64,000 nt of DNA, taken from NCBI GenBank assembly GCA_017461235.1, contig JAFTYU010000036.1, positions 78,629 to 142,628 on the forward strand, in the 5' to 3' direction. Origin of the DNA: Clostridia bacterium. GTDB lineage: Bacteria > Bacillota > Clostridia > Oscillospirales > Acutalibacteraceae. Position numbers and translations under genes: made by a program. Position 1 is the first letter of the stretch. Each line of letters opens with the position of its first letter. The notes beneath the pieces were generated by a model, which was not told the DNA's origin, did no database searches, and was given only the letters and a program-made list of their open reading frames with translations. Below are positions 26,842 to 53,650 of this stretch, piece after piece.

Positions 26842-27418
26842 GTTTTTCAGAAAGTAGTCTGAGTGCATTTCCGCGGTGGCTCAACGCATCCTTTTCTTCG
26901 GGGGTAAGTTGGGCAAAACTCTTATCCCCTACCATAAACAAGGGGTCATAGCCGAATCCGCCGTTGCCTACGGGTTCATATCCTATATATCCCTTACATT
27001 CGCCACGGGCAGTAACGATATCGCCATTGGGGAAAACGCAACAAACTACCGAAACAAATCGTGCCGTTCTTTCTTCCACCGGAAGGTCCGAAAGGATTTT
27101 TAACAGCTTGGTGTTGTTCTTTTCGTCATTGCCGTGCTCCCCTGCAAAACGTGCAGAATACACACCGGGTGCACCTACCAGATAATCAACCGCAAGGCCC
27201 GAATCATCGGCAACACATGGCATACCGCTTTCACGACAACCGCTTTCCGCTTTAAGCAAAGCATTTTCATAAAATGTTTCACCGGTTTCATCAACATCGG
27301 TAATTTCAATACCGAGCTGGTCTGCGGTTTTCACGTCAATACCCAAAGGAGAAAGTATGCGGTACAATTCATCCCGCTTTTTCATATTGTGGGTTGCAAT
27401 TAAAAACTCTTTGTTCAT
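26816..27418 (-). CDS. rdgB: XTP/dITP diphosphatase (RdgB/HAM1)
   Basis: This 200-aa enzyme hydrolyses non-canonical purine triphosphates (XTP, ITP, dITP) to keep them out of nucleic acids. It shows the N-terminal FLIATHNMKKRDEL, then DETGETFYENALLKA, ADDSGL, GAPGVYSARFAG and the C-terminal FGYDPLF and SHRGNAL motifs. Its start overlaps the ftsY stop by one base, so the two are coupled. It converges with the lipoprotein gene. Confidence 0.95.
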   Translation of the reverse strand: MNKEFLIATHNMKKRDELYRILSPLGIDVKTADQLGIEITDVDETGETFYENALLKAESGCRESGMPCVADDSGLAVDYLVGAPGVYSARFAGEHGNDEKNNTKLLKILSDLPVEERTARFVSVVCCVFPNGDIVTARGECKGYIGYEPVGNGGFGYDPLFMVGDKSFAQLTPEEKDALSHRGNALRLLSEKLKDYFSQQ

Positions 27419-28671
27419 TAACCAAACAACCTCCCGAAAAATCCTTTTTTCTTTTTGGGCTTTTCTTCTTCGTGGGCTTCTTCTGCAACAAATACCGCTG
27501 TCGGTCCGTCATCTTCTTCAACGACAGCAAGTAACTCACCTTCTACCACGCTCTCGACTGTATCGGATTCATCGGTAATTTCTTCTTTATCTGCCTGAGC
27601 CTGTGCTTCAATGTGCTCGGCTTCTTCAGCCTGAATTTCTGCCATTGCCTCAAAAATCTCACCCACAGCCTGAGCAAGCTCATTTTCCTGAGAATCGTCA
27701 GAAGGTTTGATATCTTCTTTGATTTTTGAAAGATCTATATCATCCTCTTCATAATCTTCCGGAAGTGCTTCAAAAAGACCTTCGGCAAAGGCTTTGGGGT
27801 TGAAGGGTTGTAAATCGTCAATACCTTCACCCACACCGATGAATTTAACGGGCACTTTAAGGTCATTCTTTATGGAAAGAACTACACCGCCGCGGGCTGT
27901 ACCGTCAAGCTTAGTAAGAATAATACCTGTTATCTCTGCAATTTTTGCGAATTCACGAGCCTGATTAACCGCGTTCTGACCTGTAGTAGCATCAAGAACA
28001 AGCAAAACCTCGCGGTCAGAATAAGGAAGCTCACGGTCAATAACTCTGTAAATCTTCCCTAATTCATCCATAAGGTTTTTCTTATTATGAAGTCTTCCTG
28101 CAGTATCACAAATTATTATTTCTGTGCCACGGGCTTTTGCTGCAGAAATAGTATCAAATATAACCGCCGCAGGGTCTGCACCTTCTTTATGTTTAACGAT
28201 ATCAACACCTGCGCGCTCTGCCCATACGTCAAGCTGGTCAATAGCTGCCGCACGGAAAGTGTCCGCCGCGGCAAGAATAACGCTCTTACCTTCCGCCTTA
28301 TACCGTGCGGCAAGCTTGCCGATTGTTGTGGTTTTACCTACACCGTTAACGCCAATGACAAGTATAACCGAAGGAATGGTTATAAGACCCATATCCTCGC
28401 CGCCTTCAAGCATATCCGCAACGATATCCTTGATTTCGGTTTTAACATCCGCAGGATTTTTAATACCTTTTTTACGAACAATGTCATTAAGACGAAGTGT
28501 AATTTCCGACGCAGTAGAAACGCCAACGTCACCCATTACAAGTGCTTCTTCAAGCTCATCAAAAAGTTCCTGGTCAATGGATGTATAACTATCAAGAACA
28601 TTATCAATAGCACCTGATACATTTTTTCTTGTTTTTCTTAATCCGAAGTTTATTTTCTTAAAAATTCCCAA
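27418..28671 (-). CDS. ftsY: signal recognition particle receptor FtsY with C-terminal acidic tail
   Basis: This 417-aa SRP receptor GTPase docks SRP-ribosome complexes at the membrane. The NG core has G1 GVNGVGKTTTIGKLA, the DTAGR loop and TKLDGTARGG. The usual acidic N-terminal A domain is absent: the core begins almost at once after MGIFKKINFGLRKTRKN. Instead, about 115 residues after the G domain are strongly acidic and end KPKKKKGFFGRLFG, a basic amphipathic tip like those that bind lipid at FtsY N-termini. The start is TTG 28671, 8 nt after AAGGAG. A repeat element separates it from smc. Confidence 0.94.
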   Translation of the reverse strand: MGIFKKINFGLRKTRKNVSGAIDNVLDSYTSIDQELFDELEEALVMGDVGVSTASEITLRLNDIVRKKGIKNPADVKTEIKDIVADMLEGGEDMGLITIPSVILVIGVNGVGKTTTIGKLAARYKAEGKSVILAAADTFRAAAIDQLDVWAERAGVDIVKHKEGADPAAVIFDTISAAKARGTEIIICDTAGRLHNKKNLMDELGKIYRVIDRELPYSDREVLLVLDATTGQNAVNQAREFAKIAEITGIILTKLDGTARGGVVLSIKNDLKVPVKFIGVGEGIDDLQPFNPKAFAEGLFEALPEDYEEDDIDLSKIKEDIKPSDDSQENELAQAVGEIFEAMAEIQAEEAEHIEAQAQADKEEITDESDTVESVVEGELLAVVEEDDGPTAVFVAEEAHEEEKPKKKKGFFGRLFG

Positions 28672-28691
28672 ATGAAAAACTCCTTTTTTCA

Positions 28692-28726
28692 GTTAGGAGT
28701 TAGGAGTTAGGAGTGAGGAGTTAAGG
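28692..28726 (-). repeat. heptanucleotide tandem repeat, GTTAGGA type
   Basis: Five consecutive 7-mers (GTTAGGA three times, then GTGAGGA and GTTAAGG) lie just upstream of the ftsY ribosome site and run into the inverted-repeat end of the adjoining element. Confidence 0.85.
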
Positions 28727-28998
28727 GGCACTTCGTGCCGATTATAACCGAAACACTCATTCCTTTTTACTCTTAGCTCTTAGTTGTATGATTAATATAT
28801 TTCTGAATGGGTCTGTACTTCGGTACGCATAGGTGCGAACCCTACCGTGGTTTATTTTTCTATCATACTGAAGAATAACCACAAAATAACCACCCACCAC
28901 CGCTAACGCGGTATCCCTCCCTATTTCATCACAGATTAAACAGGGATGATAATTTTTGCATTACTGCAACTTAATCTATAATCGGCACGAAGTGCCCC
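28725..28998. mobile_element. MITE-like hairpin-rich element, copy 1
   Basis: This 274-bp non-coding segment is bounded by a perfect 22-bp inverted repeat (28725-28746 and 28977-28998), consensus GGGGC...CGATTATA. Each end is itself a small hairpin (GGCACttcGTGCC). The interior holds further hairpins (GTACttcgGTAC) and the conserved blocks ACTGAAGAATA and CCCACCACCGCT. The second copy at 53329-53584 shares the ends and these blocks. No open frame is present. It lies between smc and ftsY. Confidence 0.75.
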
Positions 28999-29002
28999 GA
29001 AA

Positions 29003-29027
29003 TTTTGCATTCTGCATTTTGCATTTT
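29003..29027 (-). repeat. heptanucleotide tandem repeat, TGCAAAA type
   Basis: Read on the minus strand, TGCAAAA, TGCAGAA and TGCAAAA follow the smc stop codon directly and run into the element end. Confidence 0.8.
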
Positions 29028-32000
29028 ACGTCAGGTCAAACTTACTCGCCATCTCTGCTGTCTTAAGTTCAAGAAGTTTCGACACGCCCTTCTCCTGCAT
29101 AGTTACACCGTAAAGCATATCTGCTTCTTCCATTGTACCGCGACGATGTGTAATAAGGATAAACTGTGTATTATCCGTCATACGGCGCACATAGGAAGCA
29201 TATCTGGCAACGTTTACATCGTCAAGAGCTGCTTCAACTTCGTCGAATATACAGAAGGGACAAGGATTGATTTTAAGAATTGCAAAAAGAAGTGCGATTG
29301 CAGAAAGACCCTTTTCACCACCCGAAAGGAGTGAAATGTTCTGAACATTTTTGCCGGGCGGCTGAACCTTAATATCAATATCACATTCAAGAACGTCATT
29401 CTCATCAGTTAGCACAAGCGACGCTTTACCGCCACCGAAAAGTTCTGCAAAGGTCTGATCGAAACTAAAGTTAATTTTGTCAAACTGCTCTTTAAACTGA
29501 ACGCCCATTTTTCCTGTTAGCTCATTAATAAGCTTTATGAGTTCGGCTTTTGATTTTTCCACGTCATTGACCTGACCGTGCATAAAACTGTAGCGCTCGG
29601 AAACCTCTTTATATTCTTCAATTGCCGCAACATTAACATTACCTAACCCGCGGATTTTTCCCTTAAGCTCGTTAAGTCGTTTTTTAGCTTCGGGAACGTC
29701 TTCAATAACAATATTAAGTTCTTCTGCTTCACGTCTGGTAAGCTCATATTCGTCGTAGAGTTTATTTGATATATCATCAAACTCTTTTTGCATCGTATCG
29801 CGACGTTCTGTAAGACGTGCCTTCTCACCACCGAGTTTTTCGCGTTCTTCGGTTTTTTCACGTTCAAGAAGACGAAGCTTACCTGTTTCTTGCTCAAACT
29901 GTTCACGTTTGGCAATCTCTGCGGCAATTTTCTCTTTAGAGAGTGCGCTCTGTTCTCTGAGTCCTGCGGCTTCTGTATTAAGAACTTCGATACGGTTTCT
30001 TATTTCTTCATTTTTGAGCCTTATTTCTTCAATCTCATCATTAAGCTGTGAAAGTTTATCTTTATGACTTGTGCTTCTGCCCTGAAGTCTTACAATTTCT
30101 TCCTGTTTTGCTTCTGTCTCTTTTTGAGCAGTAGCAATTTCAAGATTAATATCAGCCGCATCAGCAGTTAGTTTTTCGCGTTTTTCTCTTAAACTTTCAC
30201 GGTCACCCGTAAGTGCAGAAAGCTCAGTTTCGACCTCTTCCATTTCTTTCTGAAGTTGAGAAAGCTTTTCTTTGGCACCTGAAGCATTGTGATTGATTGT
30301 TTCAATACGACCCTTAAGCTGTGCTCTTTCATCCAATGCTTGCTGACGGGCATCAAAAAGGTTTTTAAGATTGCCATCTTTAAGAGCGAGAACACCTTCA
30401 ACTCTTATTTTTTCTTCGCCTAAAGATGTGATTTCTGCTTTACAGCCTTCAAGCTCCGCAGTAACTGCCGAACAATTTTCCTGTTGCAGCTGAACATCTT
30501 TAAGTAACATTTCAAGCTTATCTGAAAGCTCATCACATTCACTTTTAAGTCTTTCAAGCTCGTTACCACGACTTAAAATACCGGCGTTCTGGAGCTTTGC
30601 ACCGCCGGTCATAGAACCACCTGCGTTAACAACCTGACCGTCAAGGGTTACGATTTTAAATTTATAATTGAATTTCTTCGCAATTGCGATTGCGGCATCA
30701 AGATCTTCCGCCACAACTGTTCTGCCGAGAAGTGAATTTATAATTTCGACGTACTTACTCTGGAAAACAACAAGCTTTGATGCGATATTCACATAACCGT
30801 AACAGTCATCGAGACCTTTTTCTTCCATAACCTTGCCCTTGATGGCAGTAAGCGGAAGGAATGTGGCTCTGCCTACCCTGCTCTCTTTAAGATATCCGAT
30901 AGCTTTTTTTGCATCGTTTTCGGTTTCGGTAATAATATTCTGAATCTGGGCACCGAGAGCAGTTTCAATAGCCAAGGAATATTTATCGCTGACACTGATA
31001 ATCTGTGAAACAGGTGCGTGAATGCCCTTAAGTGTACCGCGGCGTACCTCACGCATAACCGCCTTAACACTACCCTGATAACCTTCCATATTTTTTTCTA
31101 AATCGGAAAGCATATTCAAACGGGATTGCTTAACGTGTATCTCATTACGCAAAGCATTCTCCTGCTCTTTTAATTTTTCAAGTTTTTCAAGACGCTTTGA
31201 TGCGAGCAGCTCAACACCCGAAAGGGAGTTGTTAAGCTCTGTGCTTCTTTCCTTGATTTTTTCAAGTTCTTCGCACACTTCATCCTTTTCTTTAACAAGA
31301 GCATCAATAATAGGCTGTTGTGTTTCCTGCGCATCATCAATAACTTTAATTCTGTTTTCAATTTCTTCAACAGAAGATGCGGCAGTGGAAACAGTAACTC
31401 GGTTATCCGCAATCTGAAGTGAAAGAGCAGATACTTTTTCCGAAAGCTCAACACTACGTTGAGCAGATTTGCTGTTTTCATCACTGAGCGATTCAAGCTC
31501 TGCGGAAAAAGATTCAAGTTCGCGACGTTTTGCATCGATTACTTCAGCAAGCTCGGAAATAACCTTTTCGGCATCGCCTATCTGTTTTGCGATTTCAGTA
31601 TCTGTATCGTTTTCTTCAGTTTTTTCGCGTTCTATACGTTGTATTGTTTCGTTGTTATGCTCGATAGTATTTTCCTGAACGGCAACCTGACTTTCAAGCA
31701 ATGCCGCTTGCTCTTCAAGTTGAGTTGATGCACGTCTTATTTCATCAACGGCTATTGTGATTTTCTGTGAATCAACAATGGCTGAGTCAATTTTTTCAGT
31801 TATTTCATCAAGTACCTTGCACACATCGTTGTACTGTGCATCGGTTATTGTAATTTTCTTTTCATATTCTCGCAAATCGTTCTTTGTTTTTTCGATGGTA
31901 TAGAGCCAAAGACCGATTTCGAGATTTTTCTTCTCTCCTGCATATTCAAGAAATTTCTGTGCTTTTTCACTCTGAATTTTCAAAGGTCCTACGCGCGACT

Positions 32001-32595
32001 CAAGTTCGGTAAGGATATCTCTCAATCTTAAAAGATTTTCTTCTGCCTGATTAAGACGGCGCATAGCATCTGCACGACGGTATCTGTAATGAGAGATACC
32101 TGCGGCTTCTTCAAGCATATCACGGCGATCTTCTGATTTTCCGGATATAAGTGTTTCAACTTTACCCTGACTAATCATTGAATAACCATCACGACCAAGA
32201 CCGGTATCCATAAACAATTCGTGTATATCCCTGAGCCTTGCCTGTTCGCCGTTTATTCTGTATTCACTTTCTCCGGAACGGTAATAACGTCTTGTAACAG
32301 TAACTGTCTTTTCAGCGTTATTGAGTGCCATATCGGAATTATCAAGTTTTAAGGTTACTTCTGCGAAACCTACCGCACGTCGTGAATCGGTACCGCTGAA
32401 AATGACGTCCTCCATTTTGGAGCCTCGAAGATTTTTTGTTGACTGTTCACCAAGAACCCAACGCATAGCATCGGAAAGATTACTCTTACCGCTACCGTTG
32501 GGGCCAACAACAGCCGTTATGCCTTTGCCGAAATCAAGAACCGTCTTGTCCGGAAAGGATTTGAAACCTTGCATTTCAATGGCTTTAAGATACAT
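29026..32595 (-). CDS. smc: chromosome segregation protein SMC
   Basis: This 1189-aa condensin subunit organises and segregates the chromosome with ScpA and ScpB. The N-terminal head has Walker A GPNGSGKS (31-38). Two long coiled coils flank a hinge near residues 500-660 (GRATFLPLTAIKG, GGSMTGGAKL). The C-terminal head has the signature LSGGEKGLSAIALLFA and Walker B PFCIFDEVEAALDD. Length is normal. The stop codon sits exactly where the heptamer tract of the repeat element begins. It follows the Elp3-like gene with no gap. Confidence 0.97.
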   Translation of the reverse strand: MYLKAIEMQGFKSFPDKTVLDFGKGITAVVGPNGSGKSNLSDAMRWVLGEQSTKNLRGSKMEDVIFSGTDSRRAVGFAEVTLKLDNSDMALNNAEKTVTVTRRYYRSGESEYRINGEQARLRDIHELFMDTGLGRDGYSMISQGKVETLISGKSEDRRDMLEEAAGISHYRYRRADAMRRLNQAEENLLRLRDILTELESRVGPLKIQSEKAQKFLEYAGEKKNLEIGLWLYTIEKTKNDLREYEKKITITDAQYNDVCKVLDEITEKIDSAIVDSQKITIAVDEIRRASTQLEEQAALLESQVAVQENTIEHNNETIQRIEREKTEENDTDTEIAKQIGDAEKVISELAEVIDAKRRELESFSAELESLSDENSKSAQRSVELSEKVSALSLQIADNRVTVSTAASSVEEIENRIKVIDDAQETQQPIIDALVKEKDEVCEELEKIKERSTELNNSLSGVELLASKRLEKLEKLKEQENALRNEIHVKQSRLNMLSDLEKNMEGYQGSVKAVMREVRRGTLKGIHAPVSQIISVSDKYSLAIETALGAQIQNIITETENDAKKAIGYLKESRVGRATFLPLTAIKGKVMEEKGLDDCYGYVNIASKLVVFQSKYVEIINSLLGRTVVAEDLDAAIAIAKKFNYKFKIVTLDGQVVNAGGSMTGGAKLQNAGILSRGNELERLKSECDELSDKLEMLLKDVQLQQENCSAVTAELEGCKAEITSLGEEKIRVEGVLALKDGNLKNLFDARQQALDERAQLKGRIETINHNASGAKEKLSQLQKEMEEVETELSALTGDRESLREKREKLTADAADINLEIATAQKETEAKQEEIVRLQGRSTSHKDKLSQLNDEIEEIRLKNEEIRNRIEVLNTEAAGLREQSALSKEKIAAEIAKREQFEQETGKLRLLEREKTEEREKLGGEKARLTERRDTMQKEFDDISNKLYDEYELTRREAEELNIVIEDVPEAKKRLNELKGKIRGLGNVNVAAIEEYKEVSERYSFMHGQVNDVEKSKAELIKLINELTGKMGVQFKEQFDKINFSFDQTFAELFGGGKASLVLTDENDVLECDIDIKVQPPGKNVQNISLLSGGEKGLSAIALLFAILKINPCPFCIFDEVEAALDDVNVARYASYVRRMTDNTQFILITHRRGTMEEADMLYGVTMQEKGVSKLLELKTAEMASKFDLT

Positions 32596-53296: not shown

Positions 53297-53324
53297 TGCA
53301 AAATGAAAATGCAGAATGCAAAAT
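53297..53324 (+). repeat. heptanucleotide tandem repeat, TGCAAAA type
   Basis: TGCAAAA, a six-base variant TGAAAA, TGCAGAA and TGCAAAA follow the mntP stop codon directly and lead into the element end. Confidence 0.8.
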
Positions 53325-53328
53325 TAAA

Positions 53329-53584
53329 GGGGCTAACGCCGATTATAATAAAGTTAATGAAAACAACGTATTTCCATAGGGTCAGGCTTGCCTGACCCGT
53401 TTGTTTTATCGTTAACTTAGCGGTTTAGGCAAGCCTAAACCCTGAGGTTTATCGTCCTATCTAACTGAAGAATAGGGCAAGAGAACTACCCACCACCGCT
53501 ACGCGCTCCCCATCCCTTTTTTGCTTCGCAAAAATGGGATGATAAGCTTTCGCATTACAACAACTTTATTTATAATCGCGCCCC
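53329..53584. mobile_element. MITE-like hairpin-rich element, copy 2
   Basis: This 256-bp non-coding segment has related ends (GGGGC...CGATTATA at the left, TATAATCGCGCCCC at the right). The interior has strong hairpins: GGGTCAGGC/GCCTGACCC (53379-53399), GGTTTAGGC/GCCTAAACC (53422-53441) and CATCCC...GCAAAAATGGGATG (53511-53541). Blocks ACTGAAGAATA and CCCACCACCGCT are shared with copy 1 in the same orientation. Hairpin loops differ between copies, suggesting the structure matters more than the sequence. Confidence 0.72.
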
Positions 53585-53585
53585 G

Positions 53586-53617
53586 AAACTCCTCACTCCT
53601 AATCCTAACCCCTAACT
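53586..53617 (+). repeat. heptanucleotide tandem repeat, reverse complement of the GTTAGGA type
   Basis: ACTCCTC, ACTCCTA, ATCCTAA-type units read as the complement of the tract at copy 1 and end beside the purL terminator. Confidence 0.75.
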
Positions 53618-53650
53618 AAAAAACGGTCACCAAATCGGTGACCGTTTTTT
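53618..53650 (-). terminator. terminator of the purine operon after purL
   Basis: A 14-bp perfect stem (53618-53631 with 53637-53650, ACGGTCACC/GGTGACCGT) has a five-base loop and a T6 tail on the minus strand. Confidence 0.93.

Follow-up and report, generated by a model that had tools for sequence, protein, structure and literature searches.

Among described systems, the closest kind that we found for the locus studied here is the group of 23S rRNA intervening sequences that go with the protein S23p. Some rRNA intervening sequences contain no open reading frame. A literature search with most subscription papers and bioRxiv outside its scope gave no account that links S23 or four-helix-bundle genes, apart from those in rRNA, to inverted arrays of 7-mers. 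The accessible part of one article calls the spread of rRNA intervening sequences unclear, and describes one that has tandem heptamers before S23p (PMC4990558). We analyzed a stretch of 64 kb (the window), in which positions 28691-29028 between smc and ftsY hold what is probably a non-coding, MITE-like mobile element with the end design of S23-type (PF05635) elements.

The window element lies between smc and ftsY, which are both essential genes, and not inside any rRNA gene; both neighbors, as well as mntP and a purL-like gene elsewhere in the window, were identified by Pfam. The sequence-only reading had reported a 22-bp perfect inverted repeat around 230 bp of hairpin-forming, frame-free DNA, and this description is confirmed. 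The two 22-nt arms are 100% complementary and enclose a spacer of 230 nt, and the 20-nt core of the repeat, at up to three mismatches, occurs in the window at these two arms only, with a shuffle expectation of 0. Folding of the 336-nt block gives z values of -5.5 (minus strand) and -7.5 (plus strand) against shuffles, and the longest open reading frames touching 28725-28998 encode 47 and 36 amino acids; the element contains no PF05635 (S23p) gene and no frame longer than 47 amino acids. The element extends beyond the inverted repeat on both sides. Its outer edges are tandem 7-mer arrays, and it spans from the smc stop codon to ~10 bp short of the ftsY ribosome-binding site (Table). Three period-7 arrays in the window score at least 10, and the top two are these edges. 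Read inward, both ends show an array of about four to five tandem 7-mers, a small hairpin, and ATTATA in the same order. The ends had been taken to be hairpins, which is correct in that hairpins lie near both ends, but the outermost ends are the arrays. The inverted repeat was rejected as the true terminus: it represents two copies of the subterminal hairpin, and the orthologous element in a relative (G020) keeps the arrays, not the long stem. The two arrays are different 7-mers, agreeing at 2 of 7 positions in inverted comparison, and this mixed pairing recurs in the second window copy and at loci L012 and L048.

Table. Features of the two array-bounded elements in the window and the genes next to the first of them.
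Feature	Coordinates	Strand	Remarks
ftsY, TTG start, downstream neighbor	27418..28671	-	SRP54 GTPase domain, E 3.5e-80
ftsY-side array, tandem 7-mers AGTTAGG, outer end	28691..28723 (33 nt)	.	period-7 score 21.5, highest of the window; coordinates by string match
Subterminal hairpin GGGGCACTTCGTGCC, then GATTATA; inverted-repeat arm 1	28725..28746	.	
Non-coding interior	28747..28976	.	repeated module ~28853-28952 found in many genus copies
Second subterminal hairpin; inverted-repeat arm 2	28977..28998	.	
smc-side array, tandem 7-mers ATTTTGC (coding strand TGCAAAA)	29002..29028	.	overlaps into smc stop codon; period-7 score 14.0; string match
smc, upstream neighbor	29026..32595	-	SMC_N and SMC_hinge
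Second element, mntP-side array, TGCAAAA with indel	53297..53324	.	begins at mntP stop codon; read from sequence; period-7 score <10
Second element, hairpin GGGGCTAACGCC and GATTATAA	53329..53348	.	
Second element, non-coding interior	53349..53569	.	related module, opposite orientation relative to ends
Second element, TTATAATC and short hairpin remnant	53570..53584	.	
Second element, other array, ACTCCTC/ACTCCTA	53588..53617	.	stops before terminator-like hairpin 53619-53650; period-7 score <10

A second related copy had been reported in the window, and it is indeed present as a complete element beside mntP (53297-53617). Two short matches (53478-53501 and 53580-53602) betrayed it, and its full extent was found by reading the sequence; its arrays carry an indel and were recognized by reading and by motif. 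The ends of the two copies are closely alike, and the interiors do not align in the same direction, so it is the ends that define the family. An element of two copies was rejected, as the own genome (G000) contains 73 partial matches to the window element at E<=1. At E<=1e-6, matches were found in 13 of 40 genomes (own genome counted), all of the same genus, and in none of the 18 genomes of other genera; conservation of the block as an operon leader in distant relatives was thus not found.

Occupied and empty sites can be compared beside the same genes. Of the 28 loci among L058-L087 that allowed measurement, 15 have 4-30 bp from smc to ftsY (9 bp in G013 and 17 bp in G018); the sequence-only reading had described the two genes as a pair that normally sits in one operon. 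The same gap holds an orthologous element of 74% identity in G020, a shortened element with similar arrays in G017, where the 22-bp stem is not kept, a hairpin with another array in G005 (read by eye), and, in the sister species G006, a PF05635-coding element with the same end design as the window element. For the mntP site, 9 of 18 loci were read. The site between mntP and purL is empty in G013 and G008, which have the same downstream gene as judged by eye, and is occupied in G000, G005, G006, and G007; no 7-mer is common to these elements apart from AATGCA, which both G000 and G005 have on the side of mntP. At the same position, G003, G014, and G004 lack an element, but their downstream sequence is different. 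Sequences at these genus sites are too diverged to be compared for target duplication. Many partial copies, no coding capacity, matches in no searched genome outside the genus, and both occupied and empty sites support the name MITE-like that the element had been given.

Other repeats and elements were noted in these genomes. The interior module forms head-to-tail units of ~100 bp at two places in G013 (C3:23692-24066 and C35:199364-199699). Another palindromic repeat, of the GCAGTACCTT..ACAGCTTC type, directly follows the smc stop codon in L060 (G020), L061, L062, L064, L066, and L067; in G020, the final smc bases are repeated on the far side of this palindrome. At L310 12039-12590 (G000:C4) and L012 931-1552 (G000:C26), array-bounded elements have a structured leader and a small open reading frame without a Pfam match in place of the PF05635 gene.

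The protein encoded in the smc-ftsY gap of G006 matches PF05635 (23S_rRNA_IVP, E 3.2e-25), and its PDB match at E<=0.1 is one entry, 2RLD, with five chains. Matches to PF05635, whose genes are named four-helix bundle in plasmid annotations, came from 29 of 40 relatives, from 35 of 199 genomes sampled from the phylum, and from 25 plasmid records (11 from Nostoc, plus other cyanobacteria, Bernardetia, Treponema, Chlorohelix, and Monoglobus). From the listed matches, a subset was taken for a first survey of 91 loci (30, 60, and L065) at the genus, family, and order levels; its 95 hits, a few of which are fragments of one broken gene, became 84 after merging identical sequences. A second survey added 42 hits, from 28 new phylum loci and 14 of the 25 plasmid records. 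Period-7 arrays scoring at least 14 were found in 57 of 166 flanks in the first set (0 in shuffles) and in 43 of 84 flanks in the second. Other periods gave 0 at 4-6 and 9-13, 4 at period 8, and 28 at period 14, a multiple of 7, in the first set; in the second, periods 5, 6, 8, 9, and 10 gave 0 and period 11 gave 4. For control, the ftsY loci of other genomes contain 6 period-7 arrays in 530 kb (2-3 at other periods), and 400 kb of the own genome contain 4 (0 at other periods except 1 at period 12).

Of the 126 PF05635 hits in the two sets together, 60 are flanked by arrays on either side, 21 have an array in a single flank, and 45 have none. The 7-mer differs from element to element, and in 47 of the 60 two-array genes the same 7-mer stands inverted on the two sides (6-7 of 7 positions), with 3 in direct orientation; shuffled partners gave a mean of 3.8 inverted pairs and a maximum of 11 in 1000. 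Among 129 arrays scoring at least 11, 48 are 31-33 nt long, which corresponds to five 4-nt cores and four 3-nt spacers, and a few extend to hundreds of bases. The sequence-only reading could not name the element as a known one. It is no orphan, as PF05635 genes are surrounded by the same end design.

Several local features accompany PF05635 genes. Very long arrays of 263-354 nt adjoin these genes in L266, L287, and L294, and an upstream-only array of another style (ATTCTTT-like), with no downstream partner, is found in L193, L222, L224, L233, and L234. Layered ends, at L018 1250-1720 and also in L055 and L036, have up to three successive hairpin-plus-array units, each with another 7-mer, which gives the impression that elements were added within, or next to, the ends of earlier ones. 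On plasmids (L286, L295, L297, L298, and L299), PF05635 genes are flanked by hsdS and hsdR or by helicase and methylase genes, or precede cas1; the gene in L286 is missing from the annotation table.

Clean empty sites are found on Nostoc plasmids. Compared with four empty plasmids, the homology of L291 (7-mer TAATTCG) breaks at 930-940 and returns at 1363, at the arrays, and the empty counterparts have stretches of 188-198 bp in its place that resemble one another. Where L292 (CAATTCG) is inserted, three plasmids (L304, L305, and L308) carry a complete gene for a DNA cytosine methyltransferase, and 328-336 bp of target are missing from L292. At the left junction, the target sequence is itself CAATTCG in two of the three, L304 and L305, and L308 does not have it. 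In L293, 610 bp replace 593 bp of L307, the single comparator, with a left limit ~20 bp outside the array. L306 contains a coding element and also, at a place where L292 has 21 bp, a 162-bp non-coding element bounded by arrays of CAATTCG; this non-coding element carries the 7-mer of the resident coding element, and a second copy is found on another plasmid of the same strain (91.8% over 85%). At these array-bounded insertions, both coding and non-coding, target DNA of 21-593 bp is replaced and no target duplication was seen. The non-coding element of L306, in cultured bacteria, parallels the window element beside its coding relatives.

These junctions bear on the alternative that the arrays arose by slippage as simple repeats, or are binding sites that regulate the S23 gene, and that the block is a pile-up of unrelated repeats. 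Heptameric repeats of Xanthomonas and Nostoc are over-represented and generally not tied to mobile elements, according to the part of the source available (PMC4692102), and arrays are layered in places (L018); both points favor this alternative. However, the arrays coincide with insertion boundaries in the empty-site comparisons, most two-array genes (47 of 60) have a single 7-mer that recurs in inverted orientation in the other flank, and non-coding elements without an S23 gene share such ends and have empty sites. We regard this alternative as unlikely.

The element might instead work at the RNA level, either through the inverted repeat, which would fold in the smc-ftsY transcript into a long stem for RNase III to cut, or as a regulatory RNA of the operon. 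Both strands fold strongly, the element is located within the operon, and RNase III cuts rRNA intervening sequences, as stated in the accessible part of PMC4990558. On the other hand, the 22-bp stem is absent from G020 and G017, where the arrays are kept, the window has no Rfam match at gathering scores, the block is missing altogether from many relatives, and the second copy is found at a gene end, before a terminator. The earlier suggestion that the element could work as RNA is therefore unsupported, and we give an RNA-level element a low probability; the transcript may still be processed at the window element as a by-product.

On the inward side of many arrays of this lineage stand GG, then a stem of 4-6 bp with a loop of 3-4 nt, and often, after the hairpin, ATTATA. 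Anchored perfect stems were first counted in 41 of 126 ends against 16 of 2520 plain shuffles. Because the non-coding ends had been selected for GG and TTATA/TTGTA/TTACA, the test was rerun with GG kept, the rest shuffled, and the two sets apart. The stem was present in 20 of 74 PF05635 ends, which were unselected for the stem (29 of 1560 shuffles), and in 21 of 52 non-coding ends (31 of 2080 shuffles); seven ends of L178, L187, L195, and L196 had been removed before the counts. The stems differ in their letters (GACC, AACGC, GGCAC, AACC, AAGTCC, and others, some of which are shifted forms of each other), so that pairing outlasts sequence. By folding energy, the ends do not fall convincingly below shuffles (5 of 74 and 5 of 52 of them). 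In Nostoc L291 and L292, the array directly adjoins the gene, and the hairpin of this lineage is not present.

Such covarying stems near both ends are also what would be expected of a MITE of the IS200/IS605 or REP type, mobilized by a Y1 transposase that recognizes hairpins, and a Y1 match is present in 17 of the 40 relatives. Yet Y1 (PF01797) has 0 matches in the own genome, a draft that is 94% complete, and none in G001, G003, G005, G006, G008, and G013, which like it carry elements or PF05635 genes; the Nostoc elements have target replacement and lack this hairpin. Movement by Y1 is thus improbable in our judgment. S23-type proteins resemble the Avd protein of diversity-generating retroelements. 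Spread through an RNA copied by reverse transcriptase, by analogy with Avd, would fit that resemblance and is the least probable alternative, and a very unlikely one: RVT_1 is present in 9 of 40 genomes, but was not found in the 94% complete draft of the own genome or in G001, G007, G011, G017, and G020, which are drafts with 7-11 PF05635 matches each.

We therefore return to the window element as a mobile element with S23-type ends, a reading that we hold, mechanism included, with moderate confidence. Coding and non-coding elements have the end design in common, multiple copies exist, and the same genes have occupied and empty sites; the coding relatives encode PF05635 rather than any known transposase. 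In the mechanism that we propose, the S23 protein would bind the arrays, which most often comprise five cores, and would pair the two ends of the element, one related PDB entry having five chains. Host replication or repair might then anneal the element into its target, in some cases where a few target bases match the 7-mer, and target DNA would be removed in the process. Non-coding elements with such ends would be mobilized in trans by the S23 protein, and movement of the window element in trans fits this scheme. Several points stand against the reading: the window arrays are unequal, 45 of the 126 PF05635 hits have no array, and in the own genome the single PF05635 hit that bears an AATGCA array, on one side only, is broken by an internal stop. 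The exact empty-site junctions come from another phylum, in Nostoc elements without the hairpin of this lineage. In this genome, the window element looks like an old, perhaps immobile insertion. Because its two arrays differ, with the same mixed pair at the other three places, the window family is at best an unequal-ended branch of S23-type elements.

A broader proposal is more tentative, and we put it forward as a possibility to which we give somewhat less than even weight. S23/four-helix-bundle genes may be the sole gene of an undescribed class of transposase-less mobile DNA, in which a five-membered protein ring would recognize about five 7-mers at each inverted end, entry would occur by annealing at short 7-mer matches with replacement of the target, and non-coding derivatives would spread in trans; rRNA intervening sequences would be a special case, and the heptameric repeats of cyanobacteria and Xanthomonas footprints. 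The 7-mer and hairpin ends that the window element shares with PF05635 genes of several bacterial phyla point to widespread mobile DNA without a recognized moving enzyme. The inverted 7-mer arrays at PF05635 genes, the common five-core length, and the clean Nostoc empty sites join three questions, namely the function of the S23 protein, the spread of rRNA intervening sequences, and the origin of heptameric repeats, which become testable with purified protein and simple plasmid assays.

The elements share features with several known systems. Like IS200/IS605 and REP-associated elements, they have hairpins near the ends; unlike these, they have 7-mer arrays and target replacement, and no Y1 transposase was found in the own genome. 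The heptameric repeats of Xanthomonas (GGGAATC) and Nostoc (GGGGA[T/C]T) also have a unit of 7 and few units, mostly near stops and starts, and the PF05635 gene of a Planktothrix plasmid (L296) is flanked by AATCCCC units. However, in the part of PMC4692102 available, these repeats are described as quadruplex-forming, and a link to S23 genes was not found in that part. Bacterial MITEs are similarly short and non-coding, with inverted ends, many copies, and protein-coding relatives of the same end design, but in the Nostoc examples target is replaced and no duplication of it was seen, and the coding relatives here lack a known transposase. The rRNA intervening sequences are similar in three respects: the coding relatives carry a PF05635 protein, the ends are inverted or complementary (the 22-bp repeat in the window element, though absent from G020), and host sequence is replaced, which is target DNA here and an rRNA tetraloop there, as described in the accessible part of PMC4990558. 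They differ in that the elements here are located between or inside ordinary genes and not in rRNA, carry, in several phyla, arrays of 7-mers in inverted orientation at their two ends, and, in the case of the window element, have no S23 gene. We read the window element as one that works like a MITE of S23-type elements, and not as a strict rRNA intervening sequence.
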